From contig JAJYJX010000136.1 of the NCBI GenBank assembly GCA_021789095.1, positions 1 through 6,125 of the forward strand: a DNA stretch of 6,125 bases, given 5' to 3'. This stretch comes from a bacterium. GTDB taxonomy: Bacteria; JAMCPX01. Shown piece by piece: positions 1 through 5,941 of the stretch. The notes under the pieces are model-generated. The model was not told the origin of the DNA and searched no databases. It saw only the letters and a list, made by a program, of their open reading frames with translations. Within the stretch, counting starts at the first letter, position 1. Each line of letters opens with the position of its first letter. Made by a program: the position numbers and the translations under genes.

Positions 1-2273
1 AGGTAGTTGACGTCTGTTCCAAGGGGCAGCGTTCCCATAAGTGCTGAGTCTTTCAGCATTTCATCAAGGACTTTTTCTTGATTTGTTTCCAGGAAGTCTC
101 CATCCATCGTCATTGCATTGTAGAGATTATTTAATTCCACCTTGTATCCATACCTGTCGGTATATTCGTGTATGCCGCGAGCCTTTGCCCTTTGCTCGAT
201 TTTTTTCGACAGCAAAACAAAGATTTCCCACTCATTTTTGCTTTCTCCAACAGGCTCAACAGCCTTATCCGTAAATGTTACGTAGGGTATATGGGGACTC
301 GGGAAACGTACATCTATCTTTTCATAAAACCCTGCTGCCGGCAGTACAATATCGGAATACATACCTGTTGTGCTCAGTCTTGTGTCTACTGAGACAATCA
401 TTTTATAGTTGGGCCATGCATGTTTCAGCAGCATTTTTATGCCGCCCCTCGTCCTTCTCAGGGTACTGCCTGCTACGCCGAAGAACACGCGCGGTGTAAC
501 ATCCTTCGCAGGCCTTACGAACCCGTCCCACCATCCTTTGTCAATCGCTTCATTGAAATAAGAATCAAAACTACGCTTCATAGCAGAATCAGACCACTCT
601 TTGTTGTTCCAGACCTCCTGGTATCCGGCATGATAATACCAGTAGAATGCTCCCGGCGACATGGGGACACGTTCCTGAAGTATTCTGCGTTCAGTTTCAA
701 TTGCAACCATTTCATCTGTTTGCTCGGGATCTTGTTTCAGTACTTCCCTCTGTGTTTTATCCATCATCTTAAGCATCTCCAGAGTACCAACCATCCCCGG
801 TGCACGCTTTGCAATAAAGGCAATCATTCCCGGCAGCAGAGACTCGCTCCAGCCCCGTGTGCCTGTACCTCTTTTGCCCCAGTTACCGCTCAGTGCAAGA
901 CAAAGATCCTGTGCACGTTCAATCAGGTCGCCGTGATAGTATTTTGCACTGTTCCACCCAACGAGTATATGCGTTTTTGATTTTGCCATCTTTCTTGCAA
1001 GCATTTTTATGGTGTCCGGGTGCACACCGCACATCTTGTATGCCGCTTCTGGTTCATAATGCTTCAACTGGTCTTTCAGCAGTTCAAATACAGGTCGTAC
1101 CTCCACTTCCTTTCCGTCTTTTAAACGGGCAGTGAAATGACCGTCAAGTGCCGGATGACCGTCATACTTCAGGGTTTTTCGCGGTGCCTTGACAATGCCA
1201 TCATGCTCGTCATGGAAATAGAACTGGTTGATGCGGCCGCCTTCCTGCATGTCGCTTTCCCTTAAAAATTTCTTTGTATCCATCCTTACAAGAAACGGCA
1301 TGTCTGTTTGTTCCTTTATGAACGCTGCATTGTATATCTTCTCATCAATCATTACCTTTGCCATTGATAAGCCCAGTGCAGCATCAGCACCAACCTTTAC
1401 CGGCACATAATAATCCGCATGGATCGCAGACGGGCTGAAGTCAGGCGCTATGGTTACAACAGTTGCACCCTTCCAATAAGCTTCCGTAATGTAATGATAG
1501 AACGGTATCCTCGTGTAAACCGGGTTCATGTGCCATATGAGGATGAGGTCTGCATTGAACCAGTCATCGCCTGAACTTGCAAACTGAAATTTTCCGAATG
1601 TAGTATAATTACCCGCATTAAAGTCGTTAATCACAGCATCCAGATCGATCTGTGTTGTCCTGAGCAATCCGCACAGTCTGACACCCGGAATAATGCCGTT
1701 CCCGCCATAACCGCCTTCACCCGGTGAGTGCTCATAAACAATTGATTCAGGACCTTTTTCTTGAATGGCATCGAGCATTGCATCCGCAATATCTGTCAGT
1801 GCCTCATCCCATGAAACACGCTTCCATTTGCCTTCTCCGCGCTGACCCATGCGTTTTACAGGATACTTCAGCCTCTCTTGGCCATACATCACATGACTAT
1901 AGGATGCGCCTTTTTGACAGCCCCGGGGATTCATATCCGGAATATCTGATCGTACGACTGGATATTTCCCGGCCTGCTCCTCTCTCCAGACTATTCCATT
2001 CTTTGAATAAACCTTCCATAAGCAACTGCCAGGATAACAGTCTACCAGATGTACTCCCCAGGTAACCTTGTCCCATGACCATTGTTTACGCATGATGTCT
2101 TCCCATGAGCGGTACTCATACTCAACGAATCCTCCGGCCACCACGACAGGTTCCTTGGTACGAGAGGTCGAAGCAAAAGCGCTTGTAACTATAGTCAGCT
2201 TTGAAAGTGACAATACCAGTACGCTGCTGCCCGCGATCCTGAGAAACTCTCTTCTGGTAAATTCGTGCTTCAT
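1..2273 (-). CDS. Tat-exported type II DMSO-reductase-family molybdopterin oxidoreductase, catalytic (alpha) subunit, 3' end cut by the window
   Basis: The frame is open from ATG at 2273 to the window edge: 757 complete codons and no stop. Family members usually exceed 900 residues, so the C-terminal part lies outside. The N-terminus is a Tat signal (RREFLR at 7-12, hydrophobic stretch 13-33, AFA at 32-34), implying export. An iron-sulfur site of the NarG/EbdA type follows: H75, C79, C84 and C119 (RGCQKGAS). D217 in INDFN sits where type II enzymes place the Asp ligand to Mo. WHMNPVYTR (247-255), GNWGKRGTG (463-471) and DIVLPAAGFYEK (641-652) fit the bis-MGD-binding fold. By family it catalyses a two-electron redox reaction such as nitrate, selenate or chlorate reduction or hydrocarbon hydroxylation; the substrate is unknown. 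It overlaps the upstream ORF by 4 bases. Partner beta (FeS) and gamma subunits are not in view and may follow. Family is confident, substrate is not. Confidence 0.93.
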   Translation of the reverse strand, partial: MKHEFTRREFLRIAGSSVLVLSLSKLTIVTSAFASTSRTKEPVVVAGGFVEYEYRSWEDIMRKQWSWDKVTWGVHLVDCYPGSCLWKVYSKNGIVWREEQAGKYPVVRSDIPDMNPRGCQKGASYSHVMYGQERLKYPVKRMGQRGEGKWKRVSWDEALTDIADAMLDAIQEKGPESIVYEHSPGEGGYGGNGIIPGVRLCGLLRTTQIDLDAVINDFNAGNYTTFGKFQFASSGDDWFNADLILIWHMNPVYTRIPFYHYITEAYWKGATVVTIAPDFSPSAIHADYYVPVKVGADAALGLSMAKVMIDEKIYNAAFIKEQTDMPFLVRMDTKKFLRESDMQEGGRINQFYFHDEHDGIVKAPRKTLKYDGHPALDGHFTARLKDGKEVEVRPVFELLKDQLKHYEPEAAYKMCGVHPDTIKMLARKMAKSKTHILVGWNSAKYYHGDLIERAQDLCLALSGNWGKRGTGTRGWSESLLPGMIAFIAKRAPGMVGTLEMLKMMDKTQREVLKQDPEQTDEMVAIETERRILQERVPMSPGAFYWYYHAGYQEVWNNKEWSDSAMKRSFDSYFNEAIDKGWWDGFVRPAKDVTPRVFFGVAGSTLRRTRGGIKMLLKHAWPNYKMIVSVDTRLSTTGMYSDIVLPAAGFYEKIDVRFPSPHIPYVTFTDKAVEPVGESKNEWEIFVLLSKKIEQRAKARGIHEYTDRYGYKVELNNLYNAMTMDGDFLETNQEKVLDEMLKDSALMGTLPLGTDVNY

Positions 2274-3184
2274 GGTTCCCTCCTTAATGTCTTTTTTCTT
2301 GCAATAATAATTGATATGCCGATAAGAAACATTATACTATTTTCAATAGAAAAAATAAATAGAAAATGTTTTACAACAAGAGGCAAAAGTACAAGTATAA
2401 AATCATTGGTCTTTACAGCAGAAGCCGATATAACCGTCATGGGCAATTGAGAAACTACAAAGGTAGTCAGAGGGCCCAATCCCGCAAATATCAACAAGGA
2501 GATTATTAATCCCGCAGAGCCGGTGACAGACAAAGCTGTTCCCATCATTCTCAGGTTAAAGAAAAGGAACAGAATGATAACTGCTGAGAGAACAGCCGTT
2601 ATAATGAGCCCTTCATGAACTTTATGAAGGGCTTCCCTTGCACGCCCCAATTGATCAATATCAGCTTGCCTGACAAGAGTTATCATTGGTATCTCATCTG
2701 GATAGCTTGATGCTATCCAATGGGAAAGGTTCTCGAGCACCGCCTTATTGTTTGCATTCGTGCTTTCTTTTGCAGCATTGTCAAAAAACCTGATGATTCC
2801 AGCTTTAAAAACCCGAATGCTTACATACCCTCTTGTAAAGATCTCTACATTCCCTTCCTTTAAAAAGGAAATTATAGCTTTATATAAAGGAGTCATTTCT
2901 TGAACGAATTCTTTCTGCGGGTATTCCTGTTCAATCCCTGCTATAATCTCGGGCCTGCTGATAATAGCCAATACTTTCTCGCTCTCTCCCTGTGTCAAAA
3001 CATTGATAAATTGATTATACGGATGGGTCTCCATGGTCCCGGCAGGTATTGATACTGCATCAATAATGGTTGATTCGTTGACAGATCTTTCTATGTTCAG
3101 CAAAGAAAAGAATGACAAAATCACTATTGCTGTTATCACTGATACAGCGATTAAAAAAAACTTACCGGAAGGCTGTTTATTCAT
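2270..3184 (-). CDS. Unrecognised cysteine-free membrane protein (304 aa) encoded between the cytochrome c and molybdoenzyme genes
   Basis: I do not recognise a family. One hydrophobic helix (about 8-29) is followed by a soluble, mostly helical-looking segment (about 30-191). Then comes a hydrophobic C-terminal block with helices near 192-213, 217-237 and 261-296, the last stretch long enough for two passes. The C-terminus ARKKTLRREP is strongly basic and so probably cytoplasmic. With an N-in start this implies an even number of helices and places the 160-residue segment outside. There is no cysteine, so it carries no c-type heme or FeS cluster. It starts 9 bases after the cytochrome c stop, behind GAGGTGA, and its TGA overlaps the molybdoenzyme ATG. 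Parts are markedly more AT-rich than the neighbours: 13 of 60 bases are G or C in 2341-2400, against 38 of 60 in 4921-4980 within cytochrome b. It could be an assembly, anchoring or quinone-related subunit; this is inferred from position only. Confidence 0.85.
   Translation of the reverse strand: MNKQPSGKFFLIAVSVITAIVILSFFSLLNIERSVNESTIIDAVSIPAGTMETHPYNQFINVLTQGESEKVLAIISRPEIIAGIEQEYPQKEFVQEMTPLYKAIISFLKEGNVEIFTRGYVSIRVFKAGIIRFFDNAAKESTNANNKAVLENLSHWIASSYPDEIPMITLVRQADIDQLGRAREALHKVHEGLIITAVLSAVIILFLFFNLRMMGTALSVTGSAGLIISLLIFAGLGPLTTFVVSQLPMTVISASAVKTNDFILVLLPLVVKHFLFIFSIENSIMFLIGISIIIARKKTLRREP
2278..2285 (-). promoter_or_regulatory. Strong ribosome binding site of the molybdoenzyme gene
   Basis: Read on the minus strand, AAGGAGGG lies four bases upstream of the ATG at 2273. 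It is the closest match to the anti-Shine-Dalgarno consensus in the operon. It lies inside the end of the upstream reading frame, whose TGA overlaps this ATG. It fixes the start and suggests strong initiation in addition to translational coupling. Confidence 0.8.
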
Positions 3185-3193
3185 AATTTCACC

Positions 3194-4198
3194 TCACATC
3201 TTTGTATTTTTTACCCCTGATCCCACACCAGCCCTTGTAAATGATCCTGGCGCTGCAGGAACACTGCCTACGCACTCGGGCTGAAAAACATTTTTAGGGT
3301 CAGGCTTGACCACAAAACGTTCAGGTATATTCTTAAAACTCAAAACAAGCATCGCCAGTGAGCGTATTTCCTGGTCCTTGAAGTTGAAATTGGGCATCAG
3401 ACTGAGCGGTGTTACCAGATACGGGGCCTTAAAGTGAAGGAAATGCCATGAGAATACCGAGGGAGGCAGGACGCCCCAGTTCGTGATGTTGGAGAAATCA
3501 TACAAATCATTCGGTTTGTCACCCTCGTAGGTCAGGTCTGGCCCCACATCGGCCTTATACTGATAGAAGGTATGGCAGCATGTGCACATCTTCTCTGTAA
3601 ACAATTTCTTTGCCTTATTGATATAGGTAAGCCCTGCAACCTCTTTCTCGCGAAGATGGCAGGTATTACAGTTCATTTCTACAAGCGGTAAATTCTTATA
3701 ATCAGGGAAACCATACCTCTTTGCAAGGCGCTCTGATAAAAATATATCTTCCCAGCCGGCAGGTTTGGAGAAATGAGCCTCCTTTACTGTAAGCGCATAA
3801 CCTTTTCCTCCGTGGCAATAGGTACAGCCGAATTTATTGAATGGGTGTTCTTTTATAAGTTCTGGATTCGGGTGTGCCCTGAACACCAATGGAACATCTT
3901 CCCCGCTTAACTTTGGGATATCTATGCCTATATGACATGTTGTACACCTGTCTATCTTGTTTACATCCTTGATCCATATCTGCTTTACCCCGTATGAAAA
4001 ACTGTCCGCTGCTTTCTTCCCGAACTTTTGCGTCAGGATCTGCCTGAACTGAGCCTGGTACTGCTCCCACTGTGGTGTAGCGTCCCTGTGAAAGGCTATA
4101 GCGGTAAGGATCAGCAGAACGACCAGAAGCGCATAAATCCATTTACTGTCAGATTTGTAATGATCTTTAATTTCTTTTTCTTCTGTAATATTATCCAT
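3194..4198 (-). CDS. Membrane-anchored tetraheme cytochrome c subunit of the bc-type complex (c1 equivalent)
   Basis: This 334-residue protein has a cytoplasmic N-terminal stretch, one signal-anchor helix (about 20-36) and a periplasmic domain. It has four CXXCH heme c motifs: CTTCH at 85-89, CTYCH at 125-129, CNTCH at 177-181 and CTCCH at 205-209. The last begins a class I-like module whose Met ligand is probably M268 in LMPNF, followed by a closing helix (273-288). H109, H118 and H142 are candidate distal ligands for the other hemes. It should take electrons from the Rieske protein and pass them to a periplasmic partner, plausibly the molybdoenzyme of this operon. An earlier in-frame ATG at 4255 would overlap cytochrome b by 47 bases. 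I prefer 4198 because GGGTGA lies five bases upstream and the gap to the cytochrome b stop is then 10 bases. The C-terminal 35 residues are a Pro/Gly/Ser/Val-rich tail with a lone Cys (C309). Confidence 0.93.
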   Translation of the reverse strand: MDNITEEKEIKDHYKSDSKWIYALLVVLLILTAIAFHRDATPQWEQYQAQFRQILTQKFGKKAADSFSYGVKQIWIKDVNKIDRCTTCHIGIDIPKLSGEDVPLVFRAHPNPELIKEHPFNKFGCTYCHGGKGYALTVKEAHFSKPAGWEDIFLSERLAKRYGFPDYKNLPLVEMNCNTCHLREKEVAGLTYINKAKKLFTEKMCTCCHTFYQYKADVGPDLTYEGDKPNDLYDFSNITNWGVLPPSVFSWHFLHFKAPYLVTPLSLMPNFNFKDQEIRSLAMLVLSFKNIPERFVVKPDPKNVFQPECVGSVPAAPGSFTRAGVGSGVKNTKM

Positions 4199-4203
4199 AT
4201 TTG

Positions 4204-4209
4204 TCACCC
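4204..4209 (-). promoter_or_regulatory. Ribosome binding site that decides the cytochrome c start
   Basis: GGGTGA on the minus strand is spaced five bases from the ATG at 4198 and begins at the last base of the cytochrome b stop codon. The same GGGTGA sequence precedes the cytochrome b start, which supports it as the local Shine-Dalgarno form. It argues against the earlier in-frame ATG at 4255. Confidence 0.7.
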
Positions 4210-5450
4210 TAAAATCTCCCTGGAATTTCTGGTCTGTTCCACGGCCAATAGACATGCCAGTAAGGCCCCCTGCAGTAGTATGAAAATAAAATTTGAAATA
4301 CTATTGTCAGGCATATAACAGTAAACAGGACGTTCTGCCACAGCCGCGTACGGTGAAACCATATACCCGTTGAATCATTGGGGCTGTTGTCAATGGATGG
4401 CCATACCGCAAGAGCGATAAAAAGAACAGCCGGTACAAAAACTCCGCCCACAAACCCGCCATTAATGACAAAATGACCAATTTTTATCGTCGTATAACTT
4501 ATGAGCTCCTGTAACCATAAAAAGTACCATGGTGCCTTTGCAGGGTTCGGTGTCCATGCCTGTGTTGCAGGCTCGAGCAAGGGAGCACGGAAAAGCAATG
4601 TCGCAACTAATACAACGACCCATGTGGCTATGGTTACAAGGAATATCCTCCTCGGGACTGCTGGTACGGCAAGGACCCTTGAGGTGTCCTCGGCCTCGCT
4701 GATGGACTCATCGAGTGGAACGTCATGATGCACGGTGGATGCCAGGCCTCCGTCTTTTCTTATACGCCATAGGTGGTACGATATCAATAATATCACAACA
4801 ACCGGGACAGCTATGCAGTGGAACGTATAAAACCTTATTAGGGTTGCCTGGTCTATGGTCGTTCCACCGACAAGCATCCTGTACAATGTCTCACCAATCA
4901 CCGGTGTTGTCCTTCCTATCGCAGTCGCAACGGTCACCGCCCACATGGAAAGCTGGTCCCACGGCAGGAGGTAACCGGTAAAGGCGAGGAAAAGAGTTGC
5001 CAGAAGAAGTATCACGCCAACGACCCAGTTCACATACCTGTGGCTGTCCCTGCCCGGAGTCTCCCTGTATGACGCAGTATAAAACACCCTCATCATATGC
5101 AGGAACACCACCACTACCATAAGATGCCCGGCCCATCTGTGCGAATATCTCAGCAGCCATCCATAATGGGTTATAAACTCAATGTCCTCTATACTCCAGT
5201 AGGCCTGCCTTATAGAAGGGATATAAATGAACATGAGAGCCACACCTGTAACGAGCGTTATCAAAAACAGAACAGCGGATATAGTACCGAGCCAGAAAGA
5301 ATAAGACCACGAGAAACTGCGTTTTGTCACCTTGGGAGGAAACCAGTGAAGGAAGAAATTTTTTATGCGCGCCCTGTATGCCTCTTTAATGGTATCGGGA
5401 TTAAACGCCCATGTAAGCTTCAGCCATAATGATTTAATTGTTTTTCTCAT
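4209..5450 (-). CDS. petB: Cytochrome b of a Rieske/cytochrome b complex (fused b6 plus subunit IV type)
   Basis: This 413-residue integral membrane protein is the quinol-oxidising diheme core of complex III. Heme b ligands are H104 and H118 in helix B, and H211 and H226 in helix D. The 15-residue spacing in helix D is the b6f type rather than the 14 of mitochondrial bc1. The Qo-side motif GYLLPWDQ is at 159-166. The PEWY position reads APWY (306-309), so the usual acidic residue is replaced by proline, a variant found in some bacterial, mostly menaquinol, complexes. Seven helices are predicted (about 50-77, 94-125, 139-165, 205-229, 267-288, 330-352, 371-391), equal to b6 plus subunit IV with no eighth bc1 helix. 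The position of the b6f heme-ci cysteine appears to be W53, so that heme should be absent. Its ATG overlaps the Rieske stop by four bases, and the cytochrome c gene follows 10 bases later. Confidence 0.96.
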   Translation of the reverse strand: MRKTIKSLWLKLTWAFNPDTIKEAYRARIKNFFLHWFPPKVTKRSFSWSYSFWLGTISAVLFLITLVTGVALMFIYIPSIRQAYWSIEDIEFITHYGWLLRYSHRWAGHLMVVVVFLHMMRVFYTASYRETPGRDSHRYVNWVVGVILLLATLFLAFTGYLLPWDQLSMWAVTVATAIGRTTPVIGETLYRMLVGGTTIDQATLIRFYTFHCIAVPVVVILLISYHLWRIRKDGGLASTVHHDVPLDESISEAEDTSRVLAVPAVPRRIFLVTIATWVVVLVATLLFRAPLLEPATQAWTPNPAKAPWYFLWLQELISYTTIKIGHFVINGGFVGGVFVPAVLFIALAVWPSIDNSPNDSTGIWFHRTRLWQNVLFTVICLTIVFQILFSYYCRGPYWHVYWPWNRPEIPGRF

Positions 5451-5941
5451 ACATTCACCCTGAAATTCCTGTTCACCTGTTTGGACATGTCAACAACCAT
5501 GTGACCTGTAATTGGAGAAATATCCATAAACCAGTTTGGCAGCGGTTTCGGAGCAGGTCCTGCATAATTTACACCATCTCCATAGTATTTTGAGCCATGA
5601 CACGGACATGCAAATTCCCAGTCTTCCTGCAAAATTTTACCATCCTCTTTGATATCTTTTTTTTGCACCAGCGGTACATTATGAACGGTACATCCAAGAT
5701 GCGTACACACTGCGGAAATCGAATGGAACTGATTCCCCTGCCTTACAATGAACAGTCTCCTGTCTGAAATAAATGTTACACCCTCCGGGTATCCGCTGGG
5801 ATCGCCAAGATCAACACGGGCCGACGGTTCATATAGCAGGCTGGGCACAAGAGCTCTACCAAGAGAATAGATGCCGCTTCCCACTGCGGCAAAAACCAGC
5901 GCAAACTTTCCTATGAAACCAAGAAATTGTCTCCTTAACAT
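5447..5941 (-). CDS. petA: Rieske [2Fe-2S] protein of a bc-type complex, Tat-exported
   Basis: This 164-residue protein has an uncleaved-looking Tat signal-anchor (RRQFLGF at 3-9, then a hydrophobic helix to about 35) and a C-terminal Rieske domain outside the membrane. Cluster motifs are CTHLGC (79-84) and CPCHGS (112-117). By homology C79, H81, C112 and H115 bind the cluster, and C84-C114 form the disulfide. S117 and Y119, the two residues known to hydrogen-bond the cluster and raise its potential in bc1, are both present. The 27 residues between the motifs include a charged insertion (KKDIKEDGK). It accepts the first electron from quinol at the cytochrome b Qo site and hands it to the cytochrome c subunit. 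It is the first gene of the operon: AAGGGGG (5954-5948) is six bases before the ATG and a promoter lies just upstream. Its TGA overlaps the cytochrome b ATG. Confidence 0.96.
   Translation of the reverse strand: MLRRQFLGFIGKFALVFAAVGSGIYSLGRALVPSLLYEPSARVDLGDPSGYPEGVTFISDRRLFIVRQGNQFHSISAVCTHLGCTVHNVPLVQKKDIKEDGKILQEDWEFACPCHGSKYYGDGVNYAGPAPKPLPNWFMDISPITGHMVVDMSKQVNRNFRVNV

Follow-up and report, generated by a model that had tools for sequence, protein, structure and literature searches.

The closest described relatives of the system considered here are the AhyABC(D) enzymes of Desulfosudis (Desulfococcus) oleovorans Hxd3 and its relatives, and ethylbenzene dehydrogenase (EBDH). AhyA is a putative alkane C2-methylene hydroxylase, implicated in strain Hxd3 by genomics and proteomics (PMC3653055, PMC7803848). 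For EBDH, the substrate couple lies at +30 mV and the heme b at +256 mV, with cytochrome c as the probable acceptor (PMC8840923). As the potential of menaquinone is about -70 mV (PMC12954380), menaquinone is uphill for electrons leaving such an exit heme. Among complexes of the Rieske/cytochrome b (bc) type, those of Kuenenia are accompanied by an NAD(P) oxidoreductase, and the Kuenenia Rieske protein Kuste4569, with Ser and Tyr after CPCHG, has a measured potential of +303 mV (PMC12954380). The present analysis concerns an operon that combines bc genes with a molybdenum (Mo) enzyme of this kind. It lies on a 6125-bp stretch of bacterial DNA (the window), the entire contig JAJYJX010000136.1 (C74) of a fragmented assembly; the source genome comprises 2.15 Mb in 203 contigs and is 92% complete. 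Judged from sequence comparison, the operon would encode a hydroxylase with its own bc complex, feeding menaquinone by a reversed Q cycle, a reading to which we give an even chance. Within it, the pairing of bc genes and Mo enzyme is well supported, a partnership of the two is likely and the reverse direction of the electrons is plausible.

All five genes of the window are on the minus strand. In order, they encode a Rieske [2Fe-2S] subunit of 164 aa with an N-terminal anchor (5447-5941; PF00355), a fused cytochrome b of 413 aa (4209-5450; PF00033, with partial matches to NF040969/NF040970), a tetraheme c-type cytochrome with an N-terminal membrane anchor and four CXXCH motifs (3194-4198), an orphan membrane protein of 304 aa (2270-3184) and the catalytic alpha subunit (3-2273; TIGR03479), the 3′ end of which is cut by the contig end. 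The Rieske and cytochrome b genes overlap by 4 bases, as do those of the membrane protein and alpha, while gaps of 10 and 9 bases separate the tetraheme cytochrome gene from its upstream and downstream neighbors, respectively. The start of the tetraheme cytochrome is placed at 4198; a longer open reading frame begins at 4255. A Shine–Dalgarno-like sequence is found upstream of all five gene starts. Coordinates, domains, overlaps and gaps agree with the description of a five-gene operon in an earlier, model-made reading of the DNA (the first-pass annotation).

The alpha subunit scores 766 bits against TIGR03479 over most of the model. Its best match among solved structures is EBDH (2ivf, E 3e-205), followed by the perchlorate reductase type chains at about 1e-124. 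The FS0 ligands H75, C79, C84 and C119 are invariant, D217 aligns with the Mo-ligand Asp D223 of EBDH, and Lys444, the equivalent of EBDH Lys450, is kept. With this alpha type, the twin-arginine translocation (Tat) leader and these ligands, the protein belongs to the EBDH/AhyA group of type II dimethyl sulfoxide reductases. It falls outside EBDH in the strict sense, as the EBDH model NF042978 gives the truncated alpha 728 bits against a cut-off of 2000. In addition, two active-site residues of EBDH, His192 and Asp485, are replaced in the alignment by Pro184 and Leu479. Both are likewise replaced in the AhyA relatives, which share the active-site motifs, and local motifs of alpha (GPGxGGY-like and GW-x-ESL) resemble the AhyA clade. 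In the alpha tree, the protein stands outside the EBDH branch as sister to a clade with Desulfosudis, Desulfococcus and Desulforapulum records (87/87), to whose members it is 50-56% identical. Alpha is a protein of the EBDH kind, and its place as sister to the AhyA clade has modest support. EBDH itself shares the subunit plan, the Mo-ligand Asp, Lys450 and the gamma type of this system, and differs in its clade, in His192 and Asp485 and in coming from a denitrifier.

A nitrate reductase identity was rejected, as the narG model reaches 216 bits (cut-off 1084) against the 766 and 728 bits above and the gamma subunit is of the EB_dh type. The only PF00384 proteins found in the genome are the operon alpha and NuoG, the latter being what a match on contig C2 turned out to be when considered as another Mo enzyme. 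The comparison with AhyA was made through the genomes of relatives. One of these, the record Desulfococcus sp. 4484_241 (L081), gave no exact match to the published ahyA primer; the site is seen at one mismatch, where none is expected by chance. This record appears to be the AhyA-bearing metagenome-assembled genome of the Desulfococcus lineage cited in PMC7803848.

The first-pass annotation proposed extending the contig leftward in search of beta, gamma and chaperone genes. This was achieved by a genome search, in which a chimeric query of alpha C-terminus, gamma, beta and delta from a relative was run against the genome's contigs; all of them are located on contig C111. From its base 2 (locus L060, plus strand throughout), this contig encodes the last 193 aa of alpha (2-583), continuing the alpha of C74, then a b561-like protein of 154 aa (564-1028; PF01292 just over the cut-off) and the EB_dh-type gamma subunit (1049-1723; PF09459 at 72.2 bits, cut-off 33.3; TIGR03477). 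These are followed by the beta subunit, a four-cluster ferredoxin (1734-2771; TIGR03478 at 527.6 bits, cut-off 480.7), and the delta chaperone (2768-3442; TIGR03482 at 167.6 bits, cut-off 152.3). The locus thus holds the beta subunit, heme b gamma subunit and delta chaperone of the type II EBDH/AhyA group. By alignment to the homologue of genome G031, the gap that separates the two contigs amounts to about 23 residues (~70 bp). We infer that C74 and C111 join and would form one operon.

The Rieske protein of the window carries the cluster motifs CTHLGC and CPCHGSKY, and its best matches among solved structures are 9rk4 and 9rk3, presumably the pair of Rieske proteins from Kuenenia in PMC12954380. 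Like Kuste4569, it retains the Ser and Tyr that Rieske proteins of high potential have, which suggests a high potential here too. The cytochrome b is a fusion of b6-like and subunit-IV-like parts. With the 2Cys-2His set of the Rieske protein, the aligned conserved His positions of the cytochrome b and a c-type subunit, the window encodes a Rieske/cytochrome b complex. The Qo-type motif (xPWY) of the cytochrome b reads KAPWY, not PEWY, as it does in the aligned bc complexes of the tetraheme/octaheme group; a literature search on Qo-motif variants gave no result.

The genome carries two further Rieske/cytochrome b sets on contig C33. The first, C33a, has pentaheme neighbors and a cytochrome b nearer to actinobacterial-type QcrB models. 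The second, C33b, consists of an NAD(P)-oxidoreductase-like gene, Rieske, fused cytochrome b and tetraheme c. The two are close together and divergent (L036, 319-9348), which brings the number of such complexes in this 2.15-Mb genome to three. The window set resembles C33b: its Rieske protein is 44% identical to that of C33b and 34% to the AhyA-linked Rieske protein of G031, its cytochrome b is 51% identical over the N-terminal part, and its tetraheme c is 39% identical to the third C33b subunit and related to part of the AhyA-linked octaheme c. Modules of the same kind, often with the oxidoreductase gene, occur in other groups (L178, L179, L181). The tetraheme c, on these sequence grounds, can be regarded as the ordinary third subunit of this type of complex, and the first-pass annotation's view of it as a peculiarity of this version has to be given up, since the same subunit accompanies C33b in this very genome and is seen in other phyla as well. 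Likewise, the Kuenenia complexes (Kuste4569-4574 and Kustd1480-1485), of which the Rieske protein is the closest among solved structures, share a multiheme c subunit. What is odd in the window cluster, relative to both C33b and Kuenenia, is that the NAD(P)-oxidoreductase gene is absent and a Mo enzyme is there instead.

The phylum sample comprises nine genomes, all of one family. The C33a and C33b types occur throughout this family, and the window set, which makes a third, is present in one of the nine. The first-pass annotation had named the presence of another complex III in the same genome as something that would speak against dedication. Taken literally, two more are present; as the extra complexes belong to the family core and lack Mo genes, the dedication of the window complex is not weakened.

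Recurrence of the pairing was sought in 77 EBDH-like loci from named genomes, plus G031, with bc genes counted within 10 kb. Ten of the 77 loci carry Rieske, cytochrome b and multiheme c genes beside the enzyme, giving 11 genomes with G031. For recurrence and INDEPENDENCE, a Rieske gene, a split cytochrome b and a small ferredoxin are seen in all 11 bc-linked operons by tblastn, a search that also recovered some of the beta genes and, for L039/L085 and L111, the Rieske gene. The partner gene set in these genomes, Desulfococcus 4484_241 among them, is alpha-gamma-beta-delta, as in the window operon, and the AhyA relatives also share a sulfate-reducer host and the Rieske, cytochrome b and multiheme c genes in the cluster. 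Their module nevertheless differs from that of the window, having a split cytochrome b, an octaheme c and a ferredoxin. In the window operon all bc genes precede alpha, the cytochrome b is fused and of a different lineage, the c-type subunit is tetraheme rather than octaheme, no ferredoxin gene is seen, and the orphan membrane protein and b561-like protein are added. The window cytochrome b also reads FWLG in the alignment where the AhyA-linked proteins read FCLG, and so lacks a Cys that we take to be the heme-cN ligand.

The AhyA-linked cytochromes b form one clade (95/88), with octaheme modules L183 and L185, which lack the enzyme, as nearest kin. Forcing the window cytochrome b into this clade was rejected (delta lnL 83, approximately unbiased test p-AU 3e-5); by this test and by its four hemes, the window module lies outside the AhyA-linked octaheme type. 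The phylogeny thus argues that the two bc modules beside this enzyme are of separate origin. With alpha probably sister to the AhyA clade, there would have been two recruitments, or one bc module would have replaced another in place; both imply a pressure to retain some bc module with the enzyme. In two of the octaheme operons, those of G031 and G316 (L038 11188-12554, and L085), a Zn-alcohol dehydrogenase gene stands between ferredoxin and alpha, a hint that the alcohol may next be converted to a ketone.

The genome also encodes dsrAB followed by a dsrD-like gene. A link to sulfate reduction was assessed in 49 genomes to which the loci led and in the window's own genome. DsrA is over the cut-off in none of the 39 unlinked genomes but in 8 of the 11 that are bc-linked (Fisher p 3e-7, kinship ignored), or in 8 of 12 bc-linked genomes with G031, which was searched additionally. 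Related sulfate reducers make up most of the eight, so that the count reflects few independent events, perhaps two. On contig C104 (L205), the row reads dsrA, dsrB, dsrD-like, GltD-like oxidoreductase and cobyrinate-synthase-like.

The proposed mechanism may be described as follows. The alpha, beta and gamma subunits, with the delta chaperone and Tat export, would form an O2-independent, water-using hydrocarbon hydroxylase, in which a C-H bond of the substrate is hydroxylated at the Mo. From the Mo, the electrons would travel along the FeS chain in the beta subunit until they reach gamma and its high-potential heme b; the dedicated complex would then take them up through its tetraheme c and Rieske protein. 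Electron transfer from EBDH is downhill in denitrifiers. With no high-potential acceptor, the electrons would have to be lifted into menaquinone, which a bc complex running backward would be able to do; this reversed Q cycle would be driven by the proton motive force, and the electrons of menaquinone would then serve sulfite/sulfate reduction. We infer the physical coupling, the reverse direction and the aliphatic nature of the substrate. If true, alkane activation would be paid for by proton motive force. In the Ahy pathway, sulfate reducers face the problem of where to send the high-potential electrons released when alkanes are hydroxylated without oxygen. The bc genes that accompany the enzyme in two types of operon point to a concrete, testable device for this; their presence suggests that anaerobes doing this chemistry need a dedicated electron lift into the quinone pool. 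More tentatively, anaerobes without a strong terminal oxidant may have gained a private bc complex for the hydroxylase, with its Q cycle run backwards, at least twice independently. A literature search found no paper treating AhyA together with a Rieske/cytochrome b complex, subscription papers being outside the search.

Several points weigh against this reading. Electron direction is not readable from sequence, the C74-C111 join carries the estimated 70-bp gap, and the sister position of alpha to AhyA (87/87) is not starred. Most EBDH-like loci are without bc genes within 10 kb, so that the separation of bc and Mo genes in related genomes, which the first-pass annotation would have taken as a refutation, is encountered in part. 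No DsrA over the cut-off was found in the bc-linked L066, L085, L111 and G031. Lastly, a quinone-facing partner could be encoded by the b561-like gene that separates alpha from gamma. Were this integral protein a NarI-like quinone-reactive partner, the bc genes would be mere upstream passengers. Its PF01292 match is slightly above the cut-off, and in L124 and L137, two loci without bc genes, the gene after alpha encodes a weakly similar protein. This view leaves unexplained why bc modules of separate origin adjoin the same kind of enzyme, and a heme like that of EBDH, at about +250 mV, would be a poor reductant of menaquinone; we regard it as quite improbable.

The electrons might also flow the other way, from menaquinol through the bc complex, Rieske protein and tetraheme c to the Mo enzyme and a periplasmic oxyanion, as proposed for the haloarchaeal periplasmic nitrate reductase (pNar; narGH, narB Rieske, narC cytochrome b). 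There, Rieske and cytochrome b genes adjoin narGH, antimycin-A inhibition is cited in PMC4683180, and NarC is enriched with NarGH (PMC7754194); moreover, reductases occur in the type II family. The two systems share a positive-side type II Mo enzyme encoded with Rieske/cytochrome b genes, and pNar holds as the analogy drawn by the first-pass annotation (PMC4683180, PMC7754194). It is not the closest relative: pNar belongs to the nitrate reductase branch, has no multiheme c in its descriptions and differs in its likely electron direction, while the window alpha is not of the NarG type and, in the tree, joins EBDH and AhyA to the exclusion of the PcrA outgroup. With the EB_dh gamma and the narG score far below that of the EBDH model, such a terminal reductase is rather unlikely. 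Of the two directions that had been allowed, quinol to substrate or the reverse, hydroxylation becomes the likelier for an EBDH/AhyA-like enzyme. A downhill route is unlikely too; here, the enzyme would deliver to a soluble cytochrome pool, and the bc complex, working in its normal direction, would share with it only the tetraheme c or regulation. The proposed EBDH acceptor is indeed cytochrome c, and the genome has several multiheme cytochromes and a NorBC-like pair. Yet a COX1 search yielded nothing over the cut-off except one NorB-like protein and two short fragments resembling COX1. The match as an oxidase was rejected, as contig C88 carries a NorC-like/NorB-like pair. Two other bc complexes are already present, and the pairing is seen with two modules of separate origin.

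A chance neighborhood or assembly artefact is hardly credible. The contig is small, the assembly fragmented and the arrangement unique within the phylum sample; against this, the genes overlap and have Shine–Dalgarno-like sites, and the guanine-plus-cytosine content (0.449) and tetranucleotide profile of C74 agree with other fetched contigs of the same genome. Furthermore, alpha resumes on a second contig, and the bc pairing recurs elsewhere. The hydroxylase with a dedicated bc partner is favored by the extra paralogue in one of nine phylum genomes and by the pairing with a different module in 11 other genomes. This supports the partnership proposed in the first-pass annotation, with the kind of enzyme corrected; its overall interpretation is partly supported, the pairing being right and the analogue distant.

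By hydropathy, the orphan membrane protein has a single hydrophobic segment at its N-terminus and about four toward its C-terminus, with a soluble part of some 150 residues; it contains no cysteine. It matches no Pfam or NCBIfam family, and no significant relative was found in 60 + 19 genomes, 79 EBDH-like loci or solved structures. The AlphaFold model (predicted local distance difference test score 49) is uninformative. Of the two members said to set this operon apart from the haloarchaeal precedent, this protein is thus truly without relatives in the searches, and the tetraheme c is common.

Convergent with the operon end on C111 are a mobA-like and a MOSC-domain gene (L060 3446-4581). In Chloroflexota and others, several EBDH-like alpha paralogues stand side by side, often with few beta, gamma or delta genes (L065, L067, L069, L070, L072, L073, L111 and L137), and interchangeable catalytic subunits are possible in these multi-alpha loci.

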